Assembly: GCA_028066245.1 (NCBI GenBank)
Contig: JALCBR010000043.1
Location: 1-38,570, forward strand
Source of the DNA: Pirellulales bacterium
GTDB lineage: Bacteria > Planctomycetota > Planctomycetia > Pirellulales > S012-138
DNA: 38,570 nucleotides
Direction: 5' to 3'
Part shown: positions 17,562 to 38,570 of the stretch, piece by piece
How positions within the stretch are numbered: position 1 is the stretch's first letter
How the letters are laid out: the number at the start of each line of letters is the position of its first letter
Position numbers and translations under genes: made by a program
Notes under the pieces: generated by a model
The model's database searches: none
The model's input: only the letters and a program-made list of their open reading frames with translations
What the model was told of the DNA's origin: nothing

Positions 17562-18471
17562 TTTCCGGAAATGAACCGAGAATGACGAGGGTGGGGACTA
17601 ACCTCCGGCGGCCTTATTGCAAACGGCTTGCCATTTGAGATCAATCGAGATTCTGGAGAGATAAGGAGGACCTTCGTTTGCAGTCAGCTTAGGGATCGCC
17701 AAGCCCTGAGGGCGACCCCCTATCATGAACCCCGGCGCGCTACGGCGTCAAGCGGCGGAATGGGGATTGCAACTATCGAGTTCTGCCGGGGGCTCAACCA
17801 AGCAATCGAGCAGAGATTCTCTCGCCTGAAAATGAACGGCTATTCGTGCCCAAGTTGGTGTCGATTGGCGCACAGATGCGTTACTTGGCGCGACAGGAAG
17901 GTGGCTTTCACGCACGATCAAAGGCGCCCTCACCAAGGCTACACCAGCAAGCTAGAGCGCTTTCTTGTCGACGCTCCGTCGCAGCAATGGCGAATTCGGA
18001 TGTTGTTGAAGTGTTGGAAACGGCAACGGATGCGAGCAGAACAGAAATCAATAAAGCGCTCGATGAACATCTCTCTGATGGTGTTCTTTCGTCGGCAGTT
18101 CCCATCGCTTCGCGGACGTGAAACTGAATTGCCGCGGCGTTCCGCGCGCCCTGCTCTGATGCGTACGGGCGAAATTGACATTGGTCAAATTTGGGGGGTG
18201 TTTCGTGCCGCCCTGCGCGCTGCTGAGCGCCATAGGGGGTTGACGGTTAACATGCTACTGAACGTAACGTCAAGGTTGTCGGTGATGTTTGCGGTCCCGT
18301 TGCTGGCCCATTGCACGGGCGTGAAGCGTTTGCGCCACCCCCCTGGAGGATGGAAAAATTGACCAATGTCAATTTCGCCCGTACGCATCAGAGCAGGGCG
18401 TGTGACATTCCATCGCGGGATGACTCGACAGCGTCCGTTCGGACGAGCGGAACAGCAATCGGACAGGCGCT
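17562..18471. other. Long intergenic region carrying an inverted-repeat element
   Basis: This 910-bp stretch between two minus-strand genes is the largest non-coding region in the window. Its right half holds the inverted repeat described separately. The left half (17562-18146) shows a GC-rich imperfect dyad near 17690-17735 and a short frame at 17987-18121 (44 codons from MANSDVVEVLETATD) that looks protein-like but has no ribosome-binding site. A 244-codon frame on the plus strand (17628-18362) runs through it, but its composition (many Arg, Cys, Trp) is that of non-coding sequence. It must also hold the rtcB 3' UTR and the promoter of the inositol-phosphate-synthase-like gene. Confidence 0.5.
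18147..18400. repeat. 254-bp inverted-repeat element with perfect 42-bp arms
   Basis: Bases 18147-18188 and the complement of 18359-18400 are identical over 42 bp (core cgtacgggcgaaattgac then attggtcaa). Inside, GGGGGGTG (18193-18200) pairs with CACCCCCC (18336-18343), and TTGACGGTTA (18240-18249) pairs with TAACGTCAA (18265-18273) with one bulged G, so the whole unit could fold into a long hairpin. Open frames of 67 codons run arm to arm on both strands (18159-18362 plus, 18185-18388 minus), both opening MRTGEIDIGQ because the arms are the same. The partial copy at the window end has AGG where this ATG is, which argues against coding. No transposase is present, so a MITE-like or structured-RNA unit is most likely. 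Confidence 0.88.
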
Positions 18472-18475
18472 CTAG
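18359..18475 (-). repeat. Right arm plus ~89-nt outer flank, reaching into the rtcB stop codon
   Basis: Read on the minus strand from 18475, the sequence starts ctagagcgcctgtccgat and continues 89 nt to the conserved core at 18386. The same flank, of nearly equal length (90 nt) and roughly 70% identical by eye, precedes the core of the copy at 38433. The unit therefore extends beyond the perfect 42-bp arm. The TAG of rtcB (18472-18474) is part of the terminal ctagag. A CGTCCG/CGGACG mini-hairpin (18432-18445) lies within. Confidence 0.75.
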
Positions 18476-19935
18476 CCTTTGATCACTCCAATTGGGCGCA
18501 TGCGGGCAACTTTCTTGGCCAAGCCGGCGGTGTGAACGACGTCTACGACGGTATCAACGTTCTTGTAGGCGTCAGGCTGTTCTTCCGCGAGCCCCTTCCA
18601 ACTGCGAGCCCGTGCGACGACGCCTTGTTGCAACAACTCTTGATCAATCTTGCGTCCCTGAGCGTGCTTGATAGCCTTGGTACGGCTCATCACACGACCG
18701 GCTCCGTGGCAAGCCGTGCCGAACGTTTGTTCCATGCTGCCGACTTGCCCTGCCAGCACCCAACTTGCCGTACCCATATCACCAGGAATGATGACGGGCT
18801 GGCCGATGGCTTGATACGGTTCGGGCGTTTCCGGATGCCCAGGAGGAAAAGCGCGGGTTGCGCCCTTGCGGTGCACCCACACGTGCTTCTTTTGGCCGTC
18901 CACGTCATGCTCTTCACGCTTGGCGATATTGTGAGCGACGTCATAGATCAGCTCCATGCCAAGCTGCTCCCAGTTGCGGCCAAAGACCTGCTCAAAGACC
19001 TCGCGCGCCTGCCACATGAGCAACTGGCGGTTGCACCATGCGTAGTTCGCGGCGGCACACATGGCGCCCAGGTATTCCTGACCTTCCGGGCTGTTGATCG
19101 GCGCACAAGCGAGTTGCCGATCAGGAAGCTCAATGCCGTACTTGGCCGGAGCGCCGCGGAGGTTCTTCAATGCGTCATCACAGACCTGGTAACCCAATCC
19201 GCGCGAGCCGGAATGGATCATCACGCAAACCATGTCTTTTTCCAGCCCCATGGCTCGTGCCGACTGTTCATCAAAGATCGCATCCACGATCTGCACTTCC
19301 AGGAAGTGATTTCCTGACCCGAGCGTGCCGCACTGGCTGCTGCCACGTTCGAGCGCGCGATCACTGACCAAATCCGGCTCTGCGTCATCGATGCAACCGT
19401 GAGCCTCGGTAAAGCGGAGATCCGTTTCGGTTGCCAGCCCCCGCTCTTTCAAGTAGCTAGAGCCTTTGAGCATCAGCTCCCGCAGTTCCTTCTTGTTAAA
19501 CGTGTAGCGACCATCACGGCCCACGCCTGTCGGAATCGCGCCAAAGAGCGCGTCAACCAACGGCTTTTGGCGTTGCTTCGCATCTTGGTAGAACAAGTCA
19601 GTCCGCATCAATCGGACGCCGCAGTTGATGTCATAACCGACGCCACCTGGGGAGATCACGCCGCCTTCGTTTGGGTCTGTTGCCGCGACACCACCGATGC
19701 AGAATCCGTATCCCCAGTGAATGTCCGGCATCGCCATAGATGCGCGTTGGATTCCCGGCAAAGTGGCGACATTGGCCACTTGCTCAGGTGCTTGATCAGC
19801 ACGGATGAGTTCAATCATCGCATCATCCGCAAAGATCAAACCGTCAACGCGCATCTCCGGCTTGTAGCTCTTGGGGATCCGCCAGAGGGTTTCGTTGACC
19901 TTTTCCAACGGTCCTTTGTATGTCGCCTTTGGCAT
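18472..19935 (-). CDS. rtcB: RtcB-type RNA-splicing ligase
   Basis: RtcB joins RNA 2',3'-cyclic-phosphate or 3'-phosphate ends to 5'-OH ends with GTP and Mn2+, in RNA repair or tRNA splicing. The 487-residue protein shows the family hallmarks: MPDIHWGYGFCIGG, SPGGVGYDINCGVR with the metal-binding Asp102 and Cys105, LGSGNHFLEVQ, MIHSGSRGLG, YDVAHNIAKRE, and FGTACHGAGRVMSR with the guanylylated histidine. The C-terminal VARMRPIGVIKG is typical and complete. Its stop codon coincides with the outer end of a repeat element. It follows coaD by 142 bp on the same strand; no archease or RtcA gene is in view. Confidence 0.96.
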   Translation of the reverse strand: MPKATYKGPLEKVNETLWRIPKSYKPEMRVDGLIFADDAMIELIRADQAPEQVANVATLPGIQRASMAMPDIHWGYGFCIGGVAATDPNEGGVISPGGVGYDINCGVRLMRTDLFYQDAKQRQKPLVDALFGAIPTGVGRDGRYTFNKKELRELMLKGSSYLKERGLATETDLRFTEAHGCIDDAEPDLVSDRALERGSSQCGTLGSGNHFLEVQIVDAIFDEQSARAMGLEKDMVCVMIHSGSRGLGYQVCDDALKNLRGAPAKYGIELPDRQLACAPINSPEGQEYLGAMCAAANYAWCNRQLLMWQAREVFEQVFGRNWEQLGMELIYDVAHNIAKREEHDVDGQKKHVWVHRKGATRAFPPGHPETPEPYQAIGQPVIIPGDMGTASWVLAGQVGSMEQTFGTACHGAGRVMSRTKAIKHAQGRKIDQELLQQGVVARARSWKGLAEEQPDAYKNVDTVVDVVHTAGLAKKVARMRPIGVIKG

Positions 19936-38432: not shown

Positions 38433-38570
38433 CTAGAGGACCTGTCCGAGTGCGCTGTTCCGCTCGCCCACGAATTCTGTGAAGTCACCCCGAAGACGGG
38501 AGCTCACACACCTGCCTCTCAGGCGTACGGGCGAAATTGACATTGGTCAAATTTGGGGGGTGTTTCGTGC
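38433..38570 (+). repeat. Third arm of the repeat family, truncated by the window end
   Basis: Starts ctagaggacctgtccgag, 48 nt after the polX stop. The first 90 nt correspond, by eye at about 70% identity and almost equal length, to the outer flank of the rtcB-side arm (18475 down to 18387). The next 48 nt (38523-38570) are identical to 18161-18208, including the GGGGGGTG tract. The rest of this copy lies outside the window. The ATG found in the other arms is AGG here. Confidence 0.82.

Follow-up and report, generated by a model that had tools for sequence, protein, structure and literature searches.

The window, which is the entire 38,570 bp contig C67 of the draft genome of an uncultured planctomycete (Pirellulales), harbors two copies of one repeat (Table 1). 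The complete copy, referred to here as the 18040 copy, adjoins an rtcB-like gene, the stop codon of which is supplied by the CTAG of the right end of the element. The second copy follows polX, a gene whose closest named relatives come from Pirellulales (Bythopirellula, 64%; Aeoliella, 63%), and is truncated, comprising the last 138 bases of the contig (38433-38570), with the contig end falling inside it. Across the family, the element spans about 525 bp and consists of a left flank (LF, about 199 bp), two inverted arms of 46 bp, an interior of 162 bp between them, and a right flank (RF, 75 bp); the central module of 230 bp is formed by the 34-bp inverted arm cores together with the interior that they enclose. 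The end of the interior that starts with TTCCCGCCTCC is denoted Q, and the end that starts with GGGGGGTGTTTCG is denoted P.

Table 1. Features of the two repeat copies in the window
Feature	Positions	Strand	Remarks
Outer element, complete copy, 524 bp, minority interior orientation	17952..18475	+	CTAG at both ends (17952-17955, 18472-18475)
Left flank LF, composite	17952..18146	+	unit of about 110 bp bounded by IS630-type ends of its own (to about 18063), followed by left end of main element
Left inverted arm, 46 bp	18147..18192	+	conserved core 18159-18192, ANGCGTACGGGCGAAATTGACATTGGTCAAATTT
Interior, 162 bp, P end (GGGGGGTGTTTCG) adjoining LF, flipped form	18193..18354	+	as in 11/66 complete copies
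Right inverted arm, 98% complementary to left arm	18355..18400	-	core 18355-18388
Right flank RF, CTAG at end	18401..18475	+	minus-strand rtcB frame terminates at the same CTAG
RF flank, second copy	38433..38508	-	48 bp past polX stop
Arm, second copy	38509..38554	-	sequence match to arm of the 18040 copy
Interior start, 16 bp, P end adjoining RF, common form	38555..38570	-	contig end cuts here

The first-pass annotation of the window described the copy after polX as a combination of the outer flank of the rtcB side with the interior of the opposite arm, and the alignments agree with this description. The terminal 138 bases open with CTAGAGGACCTGTCCG, which matches the outer flank on the rtcB side, RF (58 of 73 positions identical between 38433-38508 and 18401-18476), and farther in, 38516-38570 (the arm at 38509-38554 plus GGGGGGTGTTTCG) is 96% identical to 18154-18208 over 55 bp, with 38495-38554 being an inverted repeat of 18355-18414. 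The copy runs through the arm into GGGGGGTGTTTCGTGC, a sequence that in the 18040 copy adjoins the opposite flank. One of the two explanations that were initially offered for this arrangement, namely, that both outer flanks were once homologous and belonged to a full inverted repeat of about 130 bp per arm, is not supported in that form: LF and RF are different sequences, and the similarity between 38433-38508 and 18071-18147 (41 of 69 positions) is no better than that obtained with shuffles. The exception to this rejection of homology along the whole length is a weak similarity of the outer termini, over about 32 bp, in line with the weak traces that had been noticed in the left flank. Positions 108-142 of LF resemble the reverse-complemented RF end (about 24 of 32, a score reached in 11 of 1000 shuffles), a likeness that fits short outer terminal repeats.

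Size, distribution, and kind of the repeat family

Searching the genome that contains the window at the DNA level yielded an initial 40 scored copies, and the arm pattern led to further sites; about 110 stretches were fetched, and LF, arm, interior, and RF were each modelled separately. The family encompasses about 200 arm sites, or roughly 100 copies, in a single draft genome of 4.9 Mb (4.94 Mb, 186 contigs), where an arm 18-mer with at most 3 mismatches occurs at 107 and 104 sites (0 and 1 for the reversed control) and the 28-mer arm core at 104 and 99 sites (0 for the control), far more than chance would give. Many other contigs likewise terminate within the module. Conservation across the family is bounded by CTAGAGCGCT... 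and ...GTGCTCTAG, that is, it starts and stops at CTAG, and on the window contig, the LF model matches 17952-18158. The composite make-up of LF is a family-wide feature, with about a dozen copies starting at LF positions around 103-112, where terminus-like sequence lies inside LF, and showing unrelated DNA upstream; in the 18040 copy, the main element starts on its left side with CTCGATGAACATC... at about 18059. Three copies (L072, L121, and L124) have in common an internal LF deletion that joins gttgatgttccgtc to ...AATTGAT and represent a structural subfamily. Outer elements empty of the module were not found among the 40 LF-scored places.

The family was absent from 56 relatives, and no copy was detected in a further 396 genomes from the class, in the GTDB 220 genomes (from which the source genome itself was possibly left out), or in the viral contigs and plasmids searched; 396 genomes of the same order gave just short, chance-like matches. 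Within these searches, the family appears to be confined to this lineage, near relatives of which are possibly missing from the genomes searched.

The termini indicate what kind of element this might be. Transposons of the IS630 group insert at the TA in CTAG, and CTAG or a near variant terminates both sides of many copies, with the left end of the element reading CTAGAGCGCTTTTC and the right end, read inwards, CTAGAGCACCTGTCCGATTGCTGTTCCG. Decayed IS630-type DDE_3 remnants are present in the same genome (C16:19096-19486 and C60:38994-39399), and the adjacent sequences CTAGAGCGTTTTTCC and CTAGAGCG...GATTGCTGTTCCG match the two ends of the element. Both remnants (L091 at C16:19096 and L090 at C60:38994) are IS630-type transposase genes that have decayed into several frames, and these transposases are the probable former source of transposition for the copies. 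The element itself lacks a transposase gene; its consensus contains some open frames, yet the common variants of the module hit all codon positions. A coding interior was considered as well and rejected, given that the common variants mostly alter codons and 1-base indels are frequent. The copies are best seen as an old, transposase-free MITE of the IS630 type with an unusual center. As with other bacterial MITEs of the IS630/Tc1 type, they are short, numerous, devoid of transposase, and bounded by CTAG, and carry end motifs like those of a decayed IS630-type element in the same genome; unlike these, they contain at their center an inverted-repeat module that occurs in both orientations and has diverged much less than the remainder.

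Interior orientation and divergence of the module

Among the 66 complete copies, Q adjoins LF in 55 and P adjoins LF in 11, at different loci; when arms are counted, with partial copies included, there are 63 LF-Q, 62 RF-P, 11 LF-P, and 13 RF-Q. The genome therefore holds both combinations of flank and interior rather than the single fixed one that the first-pass annotation had named as a refutation, and copies do differ from one another by a genuine flip. The second of the initial explanations, inversion of the interior relative to the flanks, is borne out by these counts; it is the 18040 copy that has the flipped, rarer form, not the 38433 copy, which has the common one. All 54 copies in which both flanks were recognised pair LF with RF, with no case of LF/LF or RF/RF, which places the flip inside an element and argues against assembly joins via the arms as well as against free crossing-over between copies.

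On the trees, the orientation label changes 10 times, compared to 10.3 times for shuffled labels, and well-supported branches force 3 changes. A single clade of flipped copies is compatible with the flanks (p-AU 0.14) and rejected by the modules (p-AU 0.004). Given these few forced changes and the compatibility of one flipped clade with the flanks but not with the modules, repeated flipping or transfer is likely, although not proven. Of the 66 copies, 11 are flipped, and the flanks have changed by about 14% from the consensus, so that flips, reckoned per copy, are about as infrequent as substitutions reckoned per base. The designation "dynamic element" that was initially attached to the repeat holds on the evolutionary scale only.

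The flanks have diverged independently in the different copies and much further than the module, with mean pairwise distances of 0.41 for LF and 0.33 for RF versus 0.135 for the module, and the module distance correlates with neither flank (Mantel p 0.25 and 0.71). Mismatch of the flanks to the consensus is 10-19% and flat up to the arm, whereupon, within a few bases, distances drop to near 0 in the arm core; homogenisation ends at the arms. In one pair, a flipped copy (L015) and a common-form copy (L065) have modules identical at 229 compared sites, whereas their LF differ at 26% and their RF at 29%. Common two-allele sites of the module are near linkage equilibrium, with all four gametes present in 87 of 91 pairs, and linkage within the module declines with distance, r2 being 0.34 for sites no more than 3 bp apart and about 0.045 past 20 bp; flank sites show no linkage, short range included, and module alleles show no association with orientation (all p >= 0.06). 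Because the distances are uncorrelated, the alleles are near equilibrium, and modules can be identical between copies with divergent flanks, the simplest reading is that the module has been copied and reassorted between copies, irrespective of their flanks and of orientation. Homogenisation of the two arms within a copy is slight (0.869 vs 0.861; 12 of 2000 permutations).

Private changes in the module number about 1.35 per copy, whereas the rate of the flanks (14% of 230) predicts about 32, a deficit that is explained by copying among about 100 copies and that strong selection would explain as well. Where module sites tolerate several alleles, third and fourth alleles still amount to 3.5%, compared with 6.6% in the flanks; homogenisation is therefore incomplete, and there is room for some constraint. 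Rates within the module are strongly heterogeneous, with 70 invariant sites, and CGTAC is invariant in 66 of 66 left arms while adjoining a free position. Three exceptional copies bear on the dependence on the arms, anecdotally. In L159 (C121:16203-16385 and on), the left arm and interior are deleted, and the remaining arm core has decayed, with several substitutions; in L179 (C98:25650-26178), the arms are direct repeats, and a strongly diverged interior stands next to an LF that agrees with the consensus at 91%; L074 runs counter to these two, since its arms are intact and its interior has diverged nonetheless. A structured RNA was rejected as an identity for the module, the covariation term being unfavourable on both strands and conserved structure being absent outside the arms; no Rfam match for the module was obtained at E up to 5.

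Proposed hairpin-provoked repair and the competing explanations

These patterns are probably accounted for by rare inversion and copying that are confined between the inverted arms and proceed via ordinary hairpin and repair recombination, with no phase switch involved. In this scenario, an IS630-like transposase would have spread the outer element, with its decayed remnants persisting in the genome. The center of the element is an interrupted palindrome, with two inverted arms of 34-46 bp separated by 162 bp, and the strong arm hairpin, computed at -89.4 kcal/mol as single-stranded DNA (z -12.9), would stall or be cut during replication. Strand invasion or template switching inside the arms, with the same or another copy as the donor, could then bring about repair and leave the interior either inverted or overwritten by the sequence of another copy. 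Since the two arms are inverted relative to each other, either orientation of a donor would serve, so that flips and copying become two outcomes of one process, a slow by-product of the repeat structure rather than a regulated switch. The hairpin and repair steps are deduced from sequence patterns, and the explanation as a whole, an old IS630-type MITE with hairpin-repair flips and copying in its central interrupted palindrome, seems to us somewhat better than an even bet.

Precedents exist for parts of this scenario. In E. coli without SbcCD and RecA, rearrangements arise at interrupted palindromes 85 and 246 bp in length (PMC3315005), although that work deals with inverted chromosome duplications and not with inversion of the spacer. 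Small inversions in chloroplast genomes are associated with stem-loops (PMC3123225) and resemble the present case in that the segment inside a hairpin-forming inverted repeat has inverted time and again while the outer flanks stay fixed; the difference here is that about 100 copies are dispersed in one bacterial genome and, in addition, copy from one another. Several observations weigh against the scenario. Gene conversion of the ordinary kind would be expected to spill over into flanks that once were near-identical, so that flat flanks require both initiation and tracts to be restricted to the module. The incomplete homogenisation seen in the third and fourth alleles, the diverged interior of L074, and the possibility of just one flip, in a master copy, which the flanks do not reject, all count on the same side.

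The last of these would also suit a functional module, an orientation-independent binding site or RNA under purifying selection in each copy, with the mixing of haplotypes and the few orientation variants predating or accompanying the MITE burst. We regard this as rather unlikely, though it would accommodate the paucity of private changes, the rate heterogeneity with its invariant sites, the constancy of CGTAC next to a free position, and the decay of the broken copies L159 and L179. However, there is no conserved RNA structure past the arms and no Rfam match, the common variants are not coding-like, the ancestor would still need exchange specific to the module while the flanks were uniform, and neutral copying among about 100 copies likewise predicts invariant sites.

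A site-specific recombinase acting on the 34-bp arm cores, which would invert or exchange the module as a cassette, is decidedly improbable. The sharply conserved cores in both arms are of the size of a recombination site, flips do occur, and in the genome the tyrosine-recombinase model has 26 matches and the serine-recombinase model 4. Yet no linked recombinase was found: the element has no room for such a gene, none is among the named genes beside the window copies, which the gene-neighbour check covered, and the matches are located elsewhere in the genome. Furthermore, about 200 active sites predict LF/LF and RF/RF junctions, of which there are 0 in 54, the orientations stand at 5:1 instead of near balance, and exchange by itself yields no two identical copies. 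The tyrosine-recombinase matches (26 in 4.9 Mb; L216-L225 and others) include several that cluster on contig C80. Slighter still are the chances of the broader proposition that the 230-bp module constitutes a cassette served by dedicated machinery of its own at the 34-bp cores, inverting and being copied among about 100 fixed sockets provided by the old MITE, independently of the outer element. Short-read assembly artefacts at the repeat are the least probable source of the flips and shuffled interiors. The draft state of the genome, with 186 contigs, many of which end within the module, speaks for them, but random joins via the arms would produce LF/LF and RF/RF as often as LF/RF (0 of 54 observed), and at near-identical copies, the assembler mostly broke contigs instead of joining them.

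Phase-variable invertible segments of the Hin, FimB, or Mpi type lie between inverted repeats and occur in two orientations. The module resembles them as a segment bounded by inverted repeats and present in two orientations, here at different loci, and differs in that no linked recombinase and no promoter or coding role came to light and that flips look rare. There is a warning in this likeness: such modules break assemblies and may pass for phase switches. With about 100 copies in one genome, the family amounts to a natural experiment on the DNA between inverted repeats, in which the rate of flipping and short-tract copying, along with its limits, can be read against the neutral clock of the flanks.
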